From the IMG/VR virus record IMGVR_UViG_3300009413_000109, positions 1-20,990 of that record: 20,990 nucleotides of DNA, one strand, 5' to 3'. The notes under the pieces are model-generated. The model was not told where the DNA came from. It saw only the letters and a list, made by a program, of their open reading frames with translations, and ran no database searches. How positions within the stretch are numbered: position 1 is the stretch's first letter; each line of letters opens with the position of its first letter. Positions 2,199-20,990 of this stretch are shown here, piece by piece. The stretch comes from a virus. The position numbers and the translations under genes were made by a program.

Positions 2199-3217
2199 TA
2201 GGCCATCTCCTTCATTACCTGGGCTGCGTATTGCTGGGGGGTAAGCCCCAGACGTTTCGCGAGTCTTACTTGGGTTTCCGTCAATCTGACGGTGCGTGGC
2301 CTGGCTCCGCTATTTCTAGAAGCAGATGCTACCACGGGCTTTTTTCGAGGCGGTGCGGTGTCAACAACCATCGTAGAACTAGTGCGCTGGCTATTACTAC
2401 CGAATTGCGTAGGAAAGACTTCTTTCATACGAGAATCAATCAATTCATAATATTGTTCAGACTCGGGGTCAATACCTTCGTCCATAACCAACTTCTCGTG
2501 TACACCATAAGCAAAACTAGTTAGTTCCTTATCAACACCAAACCAAGGGTTGCGATCTTGCCATTCCATCGCCTTCCCATCCGGCTGAATTGGCTCTGGA
2601 ATATGCTGTTGTTGCTGGCTCGCAACCTGTTGGTCCTCCGCCATCACCTGCTGCTTCCAATTATCGATGATTTTTTGCGAAACCGCAGGAGCATAGGCTT
2701 GAGCAAGCTGCGCGTTGGTCAAATGCTGCTGTGCGATGGTGATTTGTTCGCTATCACCCGATTCATGCGCTCTTTTGTAGTTTTCTTGGGCAATCATGAG
2801 TGAAGCATTTGCCCTAGACTTGCTTTGCTCCGTCAGGGCACCTTGAGAGTCCTGAATAAGCTTCAAAAGACGCTGATTTTCGACTTGCATACTCTGTGTG
2901 TAGCTAACAGCCTCATTTGCGAGGCGCTCTGACGCTTCTTTGGCCCTACGCTCTTCGTGATACTCCCATTTCAGCTTTTTTATGCGTTTTTGGGCACGTT
3001 GACCCAATTGTGCGACCTCTTCGTCCGATGCAGTACCGTCATCATCGCCCATTGCCCCAGAAGAGGCCCTTTGGTCCGCTTCTGGGCGGTCATCCACGAC
3101 TTCAATGTTGACTTCACCGTCATCAACGTCCGTACTTGCATCTTCAGGGGGCTCAATCGTGGTTCTGACGCCCAAAAACTTGTCTTCTTCGCTCATCCTG
3201 CCGATTTCGTCAGACAT
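2198..3217 (-). CDS. Capsid scaffolding protein
   Basis: 339 aa with the layout of an internal scaffold. It has an acidic N-terminus (residues 1-70, many D/E), a long charged coiled-coil region (about 75-205, including QLGQRAQKRIKKLKWEYHEERRAKEASERLANEA), a Gln-rich linker, and a basic C-terminal helical segment (TETQVRLAKRLGLTPQQYAAQVMKEMA) of the kind that binds capsid protein. It starts one base into the stop of the co-chaperonin gene and overlaps the next start, so the three are translationally linked. Bases 2774-2826 are the source of the foldback insertion found 8 kb away at 10993-11053. The gene itself looks intact. Confidence 0.85.
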   Translation of the reverse strand: MSDEIGRMSEEDKFLGVRTTIEPPEDASTDVDDGEVNIEVVDDRPEADQRASSGAMGDDDGTASDEEVAQLGQRAQKRIKKLKWEYHEERRAKEASERLANEAVSYTQSMQVENQRLLKLIQDSQGALTEQSKSRANASLMIAQENYKRAHESGDSEQITIAQQHLTNAQLAQAYAPAVSQKIIDNWKQQVMAEDQQVASQQQQHIPEPIQPDGKAMEWQDRNPWFGVDKELTSFAYGVHEKLVMDEGIDPESEQYYELIDSRMKEVFPTQFGSNSQRTSSTMVVDTAPPRKKPVVASASRNSGARPRTVRLTETQVRLAKRLGLTPQQYAAQVMKEMA

Positions 3218-3868: not shown

Positions 3869-6464
3869 TCTTATTTTTCTCCGACATATTCAGGCCAAAT
3901 TTCACGCCTTCGGCTTCCTGCTCGGCATCAAACTTTTCCTGTTCCAACCTTAGTTTCACGCTCTCCATCTCCTGTTCGGCATCAAACTTTTCCCGTGCCA
4001 ACGCAGCTTTAACGCCTTCAGTTTCCTGTTCAACTTCAAACTGTTCTTGATCTATCTGAGATTTAAGGAACACCTCCTCGCGCTCTTGTTCCAACGCAGC
4101 AGCATCGGAACGTTCCTTGGAAGCAATCTTCTCACGCTCAAGCTGCTGCTTCTCCTGGCCTGCTTGCTGCGTGACCGCAAGCTTCTGCTGCTCCAACTGT
4201 GATTTGGCCTGGTCTGCCTGCGCTCGACGCTGAACATCCTCGCGTCTGATATCCAATTCCTTTTCACGCTGCTGAACGATAGGATCTTTCTGCATCTTCG
4301 CGTCTTTCTCGGCCTTGGCCTTGGCTTTCTTTTTGCCCAACATCTGGTCAGCCGCATCGGCAACCAATGCACTAAGCCGCTTTTCGATATCTTTAGGCAA
4401 CGGCTGGTCTGTCGGTGGAAGCGGAACGCCAAGCTCTTCTTCGATCTGGTCACGGAAGATGAATGCCAAATGTTCGCGGATATGGGCATCTAAGGCAGCA
4501 TTGATGGCACCGCCCATCTTATTGTTTTGCATCTGCTCCTTAATCTGCGGATCATTCTTGAGCACCATATGCACCCTCATGTGTGCTTCATGGTCTTGGT
4601 ACTCAAACGCCTTCACAGGCTTCAACGTAAGAACATTTTCATTCTCACTAACTGGATCTGTGGGACGGGCCTCATCCGGTTGGGGAACAATCTTATCTAC
4701 GTTCGGGATGCCAATCAATTCCATCATCTCACGATGCAGAAGTGGCATGTCATACAGACCAGGCGATTGTTGTGCCAGTTGCATAGCCGCTTGATACTGC
4801 ATGATCCGTTGGGCCATCGTTGATGCGTTCGGGTCCGAAACCGGGACAACGTCGATGCGGTCATCGAAGTCTTCAAGCTTGATGCCTTCCCCTGATTCGG
4901 TCTCATAAGGATAGTCCGGTGATGTATAGTCGCGGATGACCCCTGAAAGAATTTTATATTCCTGCTTCAGGCTGGCATGAATCCTGGCCTGGATCGCGGA
5001 CTGTACTTTCATGGCCCGCTCCATGATCGCAAGAGTGGTCCCTACCGGAGCCTCTTGGTTCATGTCCGCTACTTTCAGGTCCGCCATCGAAGCAAACCGC
5101 CTGCCCTCTTCCACGATATTGCCCAACAATTGATAAAGAACCGAAGAAGGTTCCTTATAAGGAAGGAAGGTGATATTGTCGCGGATCACCCCTCCCGGCA
5201 CATCAACGTCCCTGAACTCTCCCGGCATAATCGGCGTATCATCGCCTTTGATCCTTAGCCCACGAGTTTTCAATCCTCCCGGTAAATTGGAAAGAGTCCC
5301 CGCATCTACAAGCTGGCGCAGCAGACTAGTCGCTGATTTAGCGAGACCGCCGATCATATGGATCAGACCTAGATTATAGAATCCGATGCCGGGGACATAT
5401 CCGTAATGAACGAAATGTTGTTTCTTTATCCTATGCGGATCATCTTCGGACCAGTTCCTGTAAATCGATAGAATCGTGGAACTGCTCTTGTCGATGGTAA
5501 CGACATAGGGCAACGCAACTCCATCGGGATCTTCAAATCCGGGTACGTCTATGTCACAATGCATTTCAAGGAGTTGATGCCGTTCATTGTTGTCCCACGA
5601 AGGGCTGACGCCACCGATCTCGTTGAATTTGCTTGTAATCGGATTTTCTTCGACATGGGACGCAGTCAATTCAACGTCACGATAGAACCCACTTACCTGA
5701 AGCTTTCTCACCTGATTCGTGCTTCGGTTCATGACATGGGTATAACGCTCGGCGTGCTCTAACTCGGATTCGTTGTACGACACGACAAAATCCTCTGCCG
5801 GTACGAACATCGAAGTCGGTCTGCCCAACGAAGGATCAAAATAGATCTTGCGGAACGCTGAACCAGCTAACGGCAGGCTGAACAGAAGCTTTTCAGTTTC
5901 AGAGCGATATTCGGTCATTACCTCAATAAGCTGGTAATTCATGTACTCCTGAACACGCCGCGCTTGCTGCTCGCGTTCATCAGTCACGACACCCCAAATA
6001 TGCGATTTGACCGGCCCCTTGGCTGGCATGATTTCTTGGATCGTCTGTGCCTGGAATCGTACAACGGCTTCAGAGAGCATCGGATGGAATACGCCACAAG
6101 CTCCAGCCCACGGAGTGGTGCGATCCTCGATTTCCAAGCCTAACTGATCCAGACCTTCTTTGTACGTCGCCTCCCAATCCGAACGACTGCTCTTATCGGA
6201 ATCAAACATCGATATGCAGTCGATTGCCAGCGTGCGAAGCTCGTTGTCTTCGATGTACTCAGCCAGATTGGAATCGAATGGTTCCTCACCGCCACCCATA
6301 AGACTCGACATGGGATCGAAATCGATCTCGACACCGCCATCTGCCAGTTCAGTGAGCATAGAGTCACCGATAGGCATCTCCTCTTCCGCTACAAGGAGTC
6401 CTTCTGGACCCATCTCGAAATCGTCTTGATTAAGTAACCCGTTAAGAGGCTTGTCTATCGCCAT
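3861..6464 (-). CDS. Portal protein with extended coiled-coil tail
   Basis: 867 aa, long for a portal. Residues about 80-650 look like the podovirus-type portal of marine phages: DSDKSSRSDWEATYKEGLDQLGL, TPWAGACGVFHPMLSEAVVRFQAQTIQEIMPAKGPVK, RVQEYMNYQL, and HYGYVPGIGFYNLGLIHMIGGLAKSATSLLRQLVDAGTLSNLPGG. From about residue 712 to the end the chain is a very charged coiled coil rich in E, K and Q, ending in three 18-residue repeats. The portal forms the dodecameric vertex through which DNA enters and leaves. The start ATG 6464 follows GGAGATTTTAG. It is in the operon directly after terL (31-base gap). Fold assignment is by sequence recognition. Confidence 0.9.
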   Translation of the reverse strand: MAIDKPLNGLLNQDDFEMGPEGLLVAEEEMPIGDSMLTELADGGVEIDFDPMSSLMGGGEEPFDSNLAEYIEDNELRTLAIDCISMFDSDKSSRSDWEATYKEGLDQLGLEIEDRTTPWAGACGVFHPMLSEAVVRFQAQTIQEIMPAKGPVKSHIWGVVTDEREQQARRVQEYMNYQLIEVMTEYRSETEKLLFSLPLAGSAFRKIYFDPSLGRPTSMFVPAEDFVVSYNESELEHAERYTHVMNRSTNQVRKLQVSGFYRDVELTASHVEENPITSKFNEIGGVSPSWDNNERHQLLEMHCDIDVPGFEDPDGVALPYVVTIDKSSSTILSIYRNWSEDDPHRIKKQHFVHYGYVPGIGFYNLGLIHMIGGLAKSATSLLRQLVDAGTLSNLPGGLKTRGLRIKGDDTPIMPGEFRDVDVPGGVIRDNITFLPYKEPSSVLYQLLGNIVEEGRRFASMADLKVADMNQEAPVGTTLAIMERAMKVQSAIQARIHASLKQEYKILSGVIRDYTSPDYPYETESGEGIKLEDFDDRIDVVPVSDPNASTMAQRIMQYQAAMQLAQQSPGLYDMPLLHREMMELIGIPNVDKIVPQPDEARPTDPVSENENVLTLKPVKAFEYQDHEAHMRVHMVLKNDPQIKEQMQNNKMGGAINAALDAHIREHLAFIFRDQIEEELGVPLPPTDQPLPKDIEKRLSALVADAADQMLGKKKAKAKAEKDAKMQKDPIVQQREKELDIRREDVQRRAQADQAKSQLEQQKLAVTQQAGQEKQQLEREKIASKERSDAAALEQEREEVFLKSQIDQEQFEVEQETEGVKAALAREKFDAEQEMESVKLRLEQEKFDAEQEAEGVKFGLNMSEKNKNE
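3864..4040 (-). repeat. Three 54-bp in-frame repeats at portal C-terminus
   Basis: Residues 809-826, 827-844 and 845-867 of the portal repeat the 18-residue pattern F(D/E)(A/V)EQE-x-E-(G/S)VK-x-x-L-x-x-EK. Nucleotide identity between copies is high around the FDAEQE and EGVK parts. The unit suits a coiled coil (two and a half heptads). The copies lie at the very end of the gene. Confidence 0.85.
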
Positions 6465-7997: not shown

Positions 7998-8014
7998 AGA
8001 AAATTTTCCGCGAG

Positions 8015-8054
8015 AAAAGGGGGGAGCCCTATCCTGAGAAAATACCCCCCCCCC
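8015..8054 (-). terminator. Possible intrinsic terminator upstream of terL
   Basis: On the minus strand a G-run (8054-8045) can pair with CCCCCC (8024-8019) over a loop of about 20 nt, followed by TTTTCTC. The long loop and short T-tract make it a weak candidate. It would stop transcripts arriving from terS. Confidence 0.35.
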
Positions 8055-8065
8055 AACCCCCCTCC

Positions 8066-8083
8066 TATACTAGTACTAGTATA
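8066..8083. promoter_or_regulatory. 18-bp perfect palindrome
   Basis: TATACTAGTACTAGTATA is a perfect 18-bp palindrome, built of two ACTAGT hexamers. It lies 83 bases upstream of terL and abuts the TATACCAGC repeats. It is a plausible dimer-binding operator; no binding protein can be named. Confidence 0.5.
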
Positions 8084-8175
8084 TACCAGCTAGATTAAAC
8101 CAGACCAGATATATACCAACCTCAAAAAACCTAGATTATACCAGCCAAGACTATACCAGCTAAGACTATACCAGC
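8082..8175. repeat. TATACCAGC repeat family, five copies
   Basis: Copies start at 8082, 8112 (TATACCAAC), 8137, 8152 and 8167. The last three form a perfect-period 15-bp tandem of form TATACCAGCYAAGAC. All lie in noncoding DNA upstream of terL. On the minus strand they produce an artificial LAGIV peptide repeat in an ORF that is not considered real. Confidence 0.75.
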
Positions 8176-8250
8176 TAGATAAGACCCAGGCGCTAAAAAA
8201 AACGAAAACAATCTCGAAATTATGAGATAGAACATGCAAAACCGTCTTAT

Positions 8251-8285
8251 CCCCCCGCGCGCAGCGCGGCGCGAAAAGGGGGGGG
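8251..8285. other. GC-rich hairpin
   Basis: CCCCCC (8251-8256) and a G8 run (8278-8285) flank alternating GC sequence that can itself pair (CGCGC arms), with an AAAA bulge. It is a strong potential stem in noncoding DNA between the TATACCAGC repeats and the CCGAA iterons. Its function is unknown. Confidence 0.45.
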
Positions 8286-8307
8286 TCGGGGGCACGGGGT
8301 CCGGCTC

Positions 8308-8439
8308 CCGAACAGAACCCGAAGGGTGGTCGGCCCGAACAGAACCCGAAGAAGCCAGCACCGAACAGAACCCGAAAGGGCCGGTACCGAACAGAACCCG
8401 AAAGGCCAGATTCGGTCTATTACCCGAACAAACCCCGAA
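8308..8439. repeat. CCGAACAGAACCCGAA iterons
   Basis: Four identical 16-mers start at 8308, 8335, 8361 and 8387 (spacing 27, 26, 26). A degenerate copy starts at 8424 and another at 8602-8617, next to the sigma-54 promoter match. Each unit contains two direct CCGAA half-sites 11 bp apart, about one helical turn. An inverted half-site TTCGG lies at 8411. The arrangement fits cooperative binding of a regulator or initiator: either upstream activator sites for the promoter at 8629 or replication-origin iterons. Confidence 0.8.
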
Positions 8440-8628
8440 ATACCCCTCAGAGGGCCTCAGAGGCTTTCTAAGGGCCGTGAGACGGTCGAAGCACTCAGGG
8501 GTAGGGTAGGGGTTGCCACGGCGTTTCTTCAATGGTACCAACGCTTTTTAGGGGTATCCTGAGCAATGGGTGCAATGTGCCCCCCATGGTGGGGGACTCA
8601 CCCGAACAAATCCCGAAGGTCCAGAACG
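8440..8628. other. Noncoding stretch with small repeats
   Basis: No credible gene. It holds a 9-bp direct repeat CCTCAGAGG (about 8445-8464), a CCCCC/GGGGG hairpin around 8580-8595, and the outlying iteron at 8602. ORFs here on both strands come from the iteron composition and lack ribosome sites. Confidence 0.5.
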
Positions 8629-9683: not shown

Positions 9684-9715
9684 CAGTCAGTCAGTCAGTC
9701 AGTCAGTCAGTCAGT
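9684..9715. repeat. (CAGT)8 tetranucleotide microsatellite
   Basis: Eight perfect CAGT units in the gap between two convergent genes (8800 gene and terS). It is followed directly by the small dyad ATCTTTCACGAAAGAT (about 9716-9731). The tract is noncoding, so copy-number slippage would not change a protein. Confidence 0.95.
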
Positions 9716-19297: not shown

Positions 19298-19873
19298 ATG
19301 TTCAAGAATTACGCAGTAACCGTAGAGGGGGTCACCCCACTCATGACCAATCGTTTTGTTGGTGATATTGGGGTGGACGACGGCAACTCTCGCCCAGGTT
19401 TTAGGGGTGAGGAAGGCACTCCAAGAGAGCAGGCTTGGAATACTTTGTATTTCAGTGGTGATGGTGAGACACTCATCATCCCCGGTCCCAACGTATTCGC
19501 CTCTCTTATGGAGGCGGGTAAGTGGTTCAAGATCGGAAGGGTCAAGGTCACGACCGTAAAGACCTCGCTACTTCCAGCCTGTCTACATCTGGAAGAGCTT
19601 GTGTTGCCAATCGAACATAAGGATGAATGGGAAGTTGATAGCCGTCCGGTGAGAATTCCGGCCACGGGTGGGCGCATCATACGACACCGCGCCATTTTCA
19701 ATGACTGGAAACTCAACTTCACCCTTCACCTTGATTCAACGCTACTGGCTCCGAAGATGCTTCGTGAGATCGTGGATGCAGCAGGTAGCCGCATAGGGCT
19801 GGGCGATTTCCGCCCGCAAACCAAGGGACCATTCGGTAAGTATGTTGTCACTAATTGGGAACAGCTTAAGTAA
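19298..19873 (+). CDS. Conserved phage protein, possible RAMP-like fold
   Basis: 191 aa, ATG 19298 after a GGGGGGAG site. Conserved-looking blocks: VEGVTPLMTNRF (9-20), PREQAWNTLYF (42-52), LIIPGPNVFASLMEAGKW (59-76), EVDSRPVRIPATGGRIIRHRAIFNDWKLNFTLHLD (112-146), and SRIGLGDFRPQTKGPFGKYVV (164-184). I recognise it as a conserved phage hypothetical. The IPG-then-helix block and the C-terminal glycine-rich GLGDFRP loop resemble Cas7/RAMP ferredoxin-like proteins; this similarity is inference. RAMP proteins bind single-stranded nucleic acid. Confidence 0.75.
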   Translation: MFKNYAVTVEGVTPLMTNRFVGDIGVDDGNSRPGFRGEEGTPREQAWNTLYFSGDGETLIIPGPNVFASLMEAGKWFKIGRVKVTTVKTSLLPACLHLEELVLPIEHKDEWEVDSRPVRIPATGGRIIRHRAIFNDWKLNFTLHLDSTLLAPKMLREIVDAAGSRIGLGDFRPQTKGPFGKYVVTNWEQLK

Positions 19874-19904: not shown

Positions 19905-20171
19905 ATGAGGACTCGTGAAGCTAGGCGCATGAAAAGGCGTGCCTTAAAACGAGTACGAATTTTAGGTCATCGACCTTCATTAATATCAGGTGAAGGTGCA
20001 TTGCATCTGTACGGATGCCTAGAACAAAACTGCTTTCATGTGCTTGAGTGTTGGGATAATCCAACCCAAGCCTGTGGCCAGATGATGCACAGCCCGTGTA
20101 CTCTCGCACTGGAACGCAGTTGGTGGAGGAGGCTTAGGTACAAAGCCTACAAACTCCTATCTGAATATTGA
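19905..20171 (+). CDS. Small basic cysteine-rich protein
   Basis: 88 aa from ATG 19905 (site GAGGGAGGA). Basic N-terminus (RTREARRMKRRALKRVRIL) followed by Cys38, 43, 49, 57 and 65 and His45, 62, enough to hold one zinc ion. It is a possible nucleic-acid-binding protein. The longer open frame back to 19842 overlaps the previous gene and has no site. Confidence 0.65.
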   Translation: MRTREARRMKRRALKRVRILGHRPSLISGEGALHLYGCLEQNCFHVLECWDNPTQACGQMMHSPCTLALERSWWRRLRYKAYKLLSEY

Positions 20172-20420: not shown

Positions 20421-20466
20421 AAAAACCCCCTGCGCTAATCAAGTTGGATTTGATTAGGGCAGGGGG
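20421..20466 (-). terminator. Intrinsic terminator facing minus-strand transcripts
   Basis: Arms CCCCCTGC-G-CTAATCAA (20426-20442) and TTGATTAG-G-GCAGGGGG (20450-20466) pair over 16 bp with one G-G mismatch and a 7-nt loop. On the minus strand the stem is followed by TTTTTCTTATT; on the plus strand it is followed by AAAAGG. It therefore stops transcription coming from the right, through the pentamer array. Confidence 0.82.
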
Positions 20467-20546
20467 AAAAGGAGTGGGGAAGGGGGGCTAACCCAAACCT
20501 ATTTTTTTTCTCATTGTCCGTTAAAACGATAACACAAAGAGGAGGT

Positions 20547-20660
20547 ATGTGTTACATCGTCATCGCGAACTTAATCACCTATGACATTCATAGCAACAAA
20601 AACATGGCAGGGCGTGGTGGGGCGGGGCAAGGCCCGGTACGGTTCGGTAATGCAAGGTAA
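20547..20660 (+). CDS. Small ORF running into the pentamer array
   Basis: 37 aa: MCYIVIANLITYDIHSNKN followed by MAGRGGAGQGPVRFGNAR. AAAGAGGAGGT precedes the ATG, though spacing from GGAGG is only one base (five from AAAGAGG). The second half is encoded by array pentamers, so the array appears to have replaced or invaded the original 3' part. It could also be a chance frame. Confidence 0.35.
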   Translation: MCYIVIANLITYDIHSNKNMAGRGGAGQGPVRFGNAR

Positions 20661-20990
20661 GGCATAGTAGCGGGGCACGGTCAGGCAGGGCGAGGCGGGG
20701 CAAAGTTCGGCAACGCAACGCAAGGCATAGTAGCAGGGCACGGTCAGGCAAGGCCAAGCTGTGCTTGGCGCGGTCGGGCGCGGCAAGGCAAGGCATAGTA
20801 GCAAGGCGTGGTGCAGTGGGGCTGGGTCAGGCGGGGCGGGGCACGGCTGGGCGTGGCGAGGCAAGGCATAGTAGCGGGGCCAGGCAAAGCAAGGCGGGGC
20901 GCGGCAGGGCTGGGTTAGGCCAAGCTTGGCCCGGCATGGCAAGGCGGGGCGTGGCCCGGCCAGGCAAAGCAGCGCAAGGCATAGTAGCAC
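20604..20990. repeat. NNNGY pentamer array punctuated by AAGGCATAGTAGC
   Basis: Five blocks of consecutive pentamers, 12, 11, 12, 13 and 21 units, each ending AAGGC and followed by the octamer ATAGTAGC (20664, 20727, 20795, 20868, 20981). All 69 pentamers read end in G then C or T; 58 end in GGC or GGT, with the first two bases free. The plus strand is G-rich. Phase is kept without a single slip. The array continues past the window edge. No gene in either strand looks real through it. Confidence 0.95.

Follow-up and report, generated by a model that had tools for sequence, protein, structure and literature searches.

VIPR (Viral Interference Programmable Repeat) is described, in a preprint of April/June 2026, as a CRISPR-like, non-contiguous RNA-guided weapon of phages against one another (PMC13142463). 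According to the preprint, its protein, Vipr, belongs to the RAMP superfamily, is ancestral-like with respect to CRISPR effectors, and has an RRM core and a G-loop. The guides (vrRNAs) consist of 9-16 alternating GGY/NN (YNNGG) units with hypervariable NN, and are encoded, for the most part in phages, between the genes of the vipr locus; pairing with double-stranded DNA is through the NN dinucleotides, and a single base is skipped from one dinucleotide to the next (PMC13142463). The vrRNA has an invariable 3′ tail of conserved secondary structure, which forms a pseudoknot in the SUSP1 clade. Array architecture is reported to vary between the seven types, staggered arrays being among them, and the loci also carry an accessory gene, vap. 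The experiments described were performed with Escherichia phage SUSP1 and a Pseudomonas fulva prophage (PMC13142463).

The DNA analyzed here (the window) is the entire 20,990-base IMG/VR fragment IMGVR_UViG_3300009413_000109, so that the pentamer array at its right end is cut off by the end of the contig. The array had been noticed from the sequence alone, and we compare it below with the VIPR loci.

Layout of the array

By direct parsing, the array begins at position 20604 and comprises 69 NNNGY units in five blocks (12, 11, 12, 13, and 21 units), every one of which ends in AAGGC and is followed by the octamer ATAGTAGC (Table 1). The octamers are spaced 63, 68, 73, and 113 bases apart, and there is no further copy within the whole window. 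All of these values agreed exactly with those of the original prediction, as did its statement that the G at position 4 and the pyrimidine at position 5 are without exception (57/57 each for the 57 units of blocks 2-5), while position 3 is G in only 47 of the 57. The longest NNNGY run is 23 units in the array versus 4-5 units elsewhere in the window, and never exceeded 6 in 2000 base shuffles of the array sequence. The pattern GGCATAGTAGC was matched five times, versus 0.28 expected from shuffles. We likewise uphold the earlier view that the array is not slippage of one unit. An Rfam search of the array returned no family.

Table 1. Features of the locus at the right end of the window
Feature	Position	Strand	Remarks
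vipr gene	19298..19873	+	191 aa Vipr/RAMP-family protein, from homology and predicted fold
Small gene between vipr and array	19905..20171	+	88 aa
G/C-rich hairpin then TTTTT	20426..20466	-	From sequence; conserved in L049, L050, and L220; unflagged by a simple scan
Conserved leader, hairpin to array	20467..20603	+	From alignment of window, L049, L050, and array-less L220
Putative vrRNA guide 1	20604..20663	+	12 units: AT AG GT GG GG AA CC AC TC AA AA AA
Octamer ATAGTAGC, putative guide boundary	20664..20671	+	Unit ATAGT plus 3-nt AGC
Putative vrRNA guide 2	20672..20726	+	11 units: GG AC CA AG GA GG AA TC AA AA AA
Octamer	20727..20734	+	
Putative vrRNA guide 3	20735..20794	+	12 units: AG AC CA AA CA TG TT GC CG GC AA AA
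Octamer	20795..20802	+	
Putative vrRNA guide 4	20803..20867	+	13 units: AA GT GC GG TG CA GG GG AC TG GT GA AA
Octamer	20868..20875	+	
Putative vrRNA guide 5	20876..20980	+	21 units, above the 9-16 described
Octamer	20981..20988	+	Array goes on past contig end

A Vipr-like protein is encoded beside the array

Attention was drawn to the gene 730 bases upstream of the array by a more distant phage (L026/L097), in which a degenerate array with octamer variants immediately follows the gene for a homologue of its product (53% identity). The protein has no Pfam family, and matches phrog_4652 (unknown function), which was also found in 18/18 relatives. A phmmer search of solved structures identified PDB entry 36pp, "SUSP1 Vipr protein" (E=9.7e-6), and a profile of the 18 relatives matched the same entry over the full length (profile residues 3-183; E=1.1e-12). 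The protein shares little sequence identity with SUSP1 Vipr, recognition coming from the profile rather than from close similarity, and the motif GxRIGLGDFRPxxKGPFGKF is conserved across the 18 relatives. An AF2 model made from 4 sequences only was poor (pLDDT 43), and the model from the 18-sequence alignment (pLDDT 82, pTM 0.79) was used instead. The matches to this model listed by Foldseek at E<=1e-3 were CRISPR RAMPs of the Csm3/Cas7 type (best E=3.5e-5, TM about 0.5), and the model also matched a predicted viral "Cas system-associated RAMP". Pfam scans of ten proteins and a PADLOC scan of Vipr gave no cas family.

From these homologies and the predicted fold, together with the linkage, guide turnover, and decoding described below, we consider it very probable (about 0.93) that the array supplies the vrRNA guides of a VIPR system encoded by the phage, with the neighboring gene as its Vipr gene. 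A repetitive noncoding RNA, one of the options named originally, fits such an array. The accompanying statement that no described phage element has such a design no longer holds, as GGY/NN vrRNAs beside a Vipr gene are described in PMC13142463, and the array is very probably a further case of that system. The original prediction had left the array unconnected with the gene at 19298-19873, on which its explanation turns. Its octamer-separated layout may be new, or may already be among the seven types of the preprint.

The array would be transcribed rightward, with the G-rich strand as RNA, which would be split into vrRNAs of about 11-21 NN-GGY units, each split lying at an AAGGC-ATAGTAGC or immediately 3′ of it. 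By analogy with the published system, small Cas7/Csm3-like RAMP Vipr subunits would then coat the vrRNA, one per 5-nt unit, with the constant GGY bound by protein and the NN pairing with double-stranded DNA, one target base being skipped between dinucleotides. Such binding would repress transcription at the bound site, which as a rule would belong to a related phage in competition with the carrier, and the octamer, by breaking the 5-nt register, would end one guide and start the next. We infer RNA processing, RNP formation, DNA binding, and repression from PMC13142463, and the role of the octamer as a boundary signal from the present analysis only.

The array sits between convergent genes, with vipr on the rightward side and a leftward primase gene opposite. 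The hairpin upstream of the array is a probable terminator of the leftward (primase-side) transcripts, and rightward vrRNA transcription would cross, or start in, the conserved leader. A leader peptide before the array (MCYIVIANLITYDIH) is conserved in three phages, but is probably not a gene, because its start ATG reads ATA in the array-less relative L220. The small gene that follows vipr has a homologue in L220, itself without vipr, and is therefore unlikely to be a VIPR accessory gene; it probably belongs to the ordinary gene set of these phages. We recognized no accessory (vap) gene and no conserved partner gene beside vipr. Elsewhere in the window, an Rfam Mu-gpT-DE RNA (RF03012; 50.3 bits) lies at 27-78 on the minus strand, adjoining the major head protein gene, and tandem repeats at 8133-8177, 8308-8409, and 9684-9715 (15 bp x3, 26 bp x3.9, and (CAGT)8, respectively) fall between the terminase and the rightward genes.

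Related phages with and without the array

The original prediction had proposed searching contigs for the octamer flanked by 5-nt-periodic units, and counting the blocks past the contig end. Scanning IMG/VR for GGCATAGTAGCNNGGC identified two contigs with true arrays, L049 and L050, which come from two other metagenomes, have conserved flanks, and share the vipr-array arrangement of the window. The array of L049 is complete and answers the second question in a relative: it comprises 14 blocks (1.17 kb) and extends from the conserved leader to the 3′ end of the convergent primase-helicase gene. That of L050 has at least 7 full blocks. A close relative, the 51.8-kb phage L220, has an 86% identical primase and the same flanks, and lacks both vipr and the array; its leader is kept and runs directly into the primase gene.

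Beyond this group, NNGGY tracts lie immediately upstream or downstream of vipr in most of the Vipr relatives that we fetched (L087-L105). More distant Vipr homologues were found in mycobacteriophages, Felixounavirus phages, and Gordonia phages, and those of Mycobacterium phage Donkeykong, E. coli phage Alf5 (SUSP1-type), and Gordonia phage MakoManhole lie beside NNGGY tracts. The only match in a Vipr scan of cellular genome contigs was a homologue with 49% identity, accompanied by NNGGY tracts, at 8001-8561 of the Planctomycetota MAG contig JACCZE010000187.1 (L105), which is likely to be a prophage or a misbinned phage contig.

Pooling the window, L049, and L050 gave 368 units in 26 blocks, of which 306 have G at position 3, 360 have G at position 4, and 366 have a pyrimidine at position 5. 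Inside the guides (from the fourth unit inwards) the entropy of NN is 3.2-3.6 of 4 bits, and it drops, over the two units that precede the octamer, to 1.9 and then 0.8 bits. The notion that positions 1-2 vary freely thus held inside the guides, but not for the last one or two units, which are nearly constant AA (22/26 and 17/26 blocks). Given this fall in entropy, AACGC/AAGGC-ATAGTAGC is, on sequence grounds, the constant 3′ end of the guides. Block length ranges from 10 to 22 units, with 8 of the 26 blocks longer than 16; guide 5 of the window (21 units) is among these, and is possibly two guides whose boundary was lost.

Between the window and L049, the vipr DNA is 97.7% identical and the flank 95% identical, and almost all of the guides differ. 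Only one of the five window guides has a long NN string in common with L049, and guide 4 has 7 NN in common with guides 2 and 3 of L049. Aligning related phages, as had been suggested, therefore revealed turnover of the pentamers while the gene, flanks, and constant 3′ end were kept. We know of no mechanism for the acquisition or turnover of VIPR guides. The window, L049, L050, and the empty site of L220 form a natural series in which guides change while gene and flanks are nearly identical, and which opens both processes to comparison.

Putative boundaries between guides

The octamer consists of a normal-looking unit, ATAGT, and a 3-nt step, AGC, such that the 5-nt register is broken; the reset of the register at each octamer, as originally noted, is real and meaningful. 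Folding revealed no common hairpin, and the 8-nt separator leaves no space for a pseudoknot. Other arrays are divided differently. In Alf5, the tracts are separated by a structured tail of about 72 nt, and in Donkeykong and cyanophage Cy-LDV1 the blocks are split by a -1 slip, GGCAGGC, which is a 4-nt step. The L096 array (4330-5131), with 12 vrRNA-like guides, lies directly upstream of vipr and has a 12-nt separator, AAGGATTTTAG[TC]. The tracts of Cy-LDV1 (L007), at 1701-1882 and 2508-2640, are intergenic, and the adjoining gene is not Vipr by alignment. MakoManhole (L262) carries three near-identical ~41-nt copies of GCTCGGATGGTCGCAGGTGGGGTTCGACTCCCCACCCGAGC, at about 1650-1692, 2985-3026, and 3105-3142, beside the NNGGY tracts near its Vipr homologue. 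These copies resemble a tRNA half (an acceptor-stem and T-arm minihelix), are not called as tRNA by ARAGORN or Rfam, and may serve in vrRNA processing as a tRNA-like signal.

The octamers seem to lie where one guide gives way to the next. One could instead suppose that the whole 1.2 kb is a single long VIPR transcript, acting as a scaffold or sponge, and that the octamer binds something else; the wide variation in block length (10-22 units) and the lack of a structured tail or known ribozyme at the octamers (Rfam, folds) would agree with this. We nevertheless consider it unlikely, as the constant AA-GGC lies just 5′ of the octamer and variable units just 3′ of it, as at a 3′ end, single guides in other members of the clade have 9-18 units, and register breaks of other kinds divide unrelated arrays, too, into blocks of about 8-15 units. 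It is possible, if somewhat short of probable, that tail-less VIPR arrays in general encode their guide boundaries as short phase-breaking elements (8-mer, 12-mer, or -1 slip). If so, the phase shift would stop Vipr filaments, which would be built in 5-nt steps, from crossing into the next guide, and the layout would be distinct from the arrays with structured tails and hammerheads in the main text of PMC13142463.

The original prediction had likened the array to immunoglobulin switch repeats, and R-loop- or G-quadruplex-forming DNA for replication priming would account for the strong G bias of one strand, on which GG every 5 bases could give two-quartet G4s. However, about 17% of units have another base in place of the first G while keeping GY, which fits recognition of the unit and not of G tracts, L220 replicates without an array, and the link between array and vipr is seen in unrelated phages as well. 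We found no evidence for such priming, which we regard as highly improbable, nor for the packaging signal that had also been suggested. TRAP-like ring binding and a G4 function were considered too, and were superseded by the Vipr finding. Much the same small likelihood attaches to a Rho utilization site in C-rich minus-strand RNA between convergent operons, or a simple bidirectional terminator: the position of the array between convergent genes and the C-rich minus-strand transcript would suit either, but the strict 5-nt phase, register-resetting octamers, hypervariable NN, and vipr linkage would be left unexplained, and the leftward transcripts are already served by the hairpin and U-tract, which are kept in L220. 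Scarcely credible at all is a protein-coding repeat (the minus strand at 20571-20990 is open for 139 codons, and for up to 309 in L049) or an assembly artefact, as the octamer spacings keep no reading frame, the missing stops are explained by the C-rich composition, and the array, with conserved flanks, recurs in two independent contigs from other metagenomes, which rules out the artefact.

Decoding of the guides and candidate targets

Guides were decoded with the published 1-nt skip rule (PMC13142463), using stretches of 8 units and a cut-off of >=15/16. When 39 guides of the wider clade were compared with 0.48 Mb of clade phage DNA, 5/39 reached >=15/16 with the 1-nt skip, versus 1.5 for shuffled guides; with skips of 0, 2, or 3, only 0-1 of the same guides did so. 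Within the SF2 helicase of L094, guide L98.3 has a 20/20-base match (YLCNVNVLTT) and guide L93.3 a match to the Walker A region, and guides L92.1 and L93.1 match one small gene, DUF669-like by eye, just upstream of vipr. In these matches, to the helicase and the DUF669-like gene, the skipped base is the wobble position. By these matches, the relatives' guides would address replication genes of related phages.

Among the window guides, guide 3 has 8 consecutive NN that match 16/16 with the 1-nt skip in L155, L175, L212, and L218, which represent one related species (portal 73% and terminase 85% identical to those of the window phage). The matched site, ACcCAaAAaCAtTGtTTtGCtCGt, is promoter-like and lies in the intergenic stretch that separates divergent genes, a position at which repression would be effective. 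The chance expectation of such a match, in the same pool, is 0.019 for all window guides and rises to 0.11 when the guides of the entire window group are counted, and we regard this candidate target in a related phage as suggestive.

No convincing target was found for guides 1, 2, 4, and 5 in scans of IMG/VR and related phages, and guides of the window group showed no enrichment against 1.2 Mb of related phages (1 guide at >=15/16 versus 4.3 for shuffled guides). For guide 5, a core of 18 bases had no match in IMG/VR, and one of 16 bases matched 7 IMG/VR contigs, none of which extends. The core of guide 4 matched 24 IMG/VR contigs, about the chance number. Its best match (L187; 25/26) is at a gene start, in a contig without visible relation to the window phage, and is ambiguous. 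A second candidate for guide 4, a terminase-like motif (FVAGWQGGTW) in 12 contigs, was rejected, as no match extended beyond the core plus one unit.

Comparison with known systems

The locus resembles VIPR in its RAMP-fold Vipr protein of about 20 kDa, in phage-borne tandem NN-GGY pentamers with hypervariable NN beside vipr, and in clade guides that match related phages with a 1-nt skip placed on the wobble base. Unlike the SUSP1-type Alf5, the group has guides arranged head to tail (at least 14 in L049), with the 8-nt ATAGTAGC in place of the ~72-nt structured tail. It also differs from described VIPR in the length of its blocks (10-22 units versus 9-16) and in that no vap gene was recognized. 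Contiguous blocks, of 8-12 units, are also found in the tracts of Donkeykong, where they adjoin a Vipr homologue (gene 49), and of Cy-LDV1, but there the 4-nt step GGCAGGC stands where the window has the octamer.

With CRISPR Class 1 (Csm3/Cas7), the locus shares the RAMP fold and arrays of programmable guides with constant separators. In contrast to CRISPR, the guide letters are non-contiguous within pentamers, there are no identical ~30-nt repeats, and no Cas genes were seen in the window. It lacks the make-up of a CRISPR array: only the 8-13 nt punctuation is constant, and the "spacers" are pentamer tracts. The comparison places a compact, multi-guide form of VIPR in marine phages related by their portal protein to Pelagibacter phages HTVC023P and HTVC027P, with an array that, at 14 or more guides in L049, is among the larger guide arrays in this analysis, and with a candidate register-break rule for guide boundaries that is directly testable.
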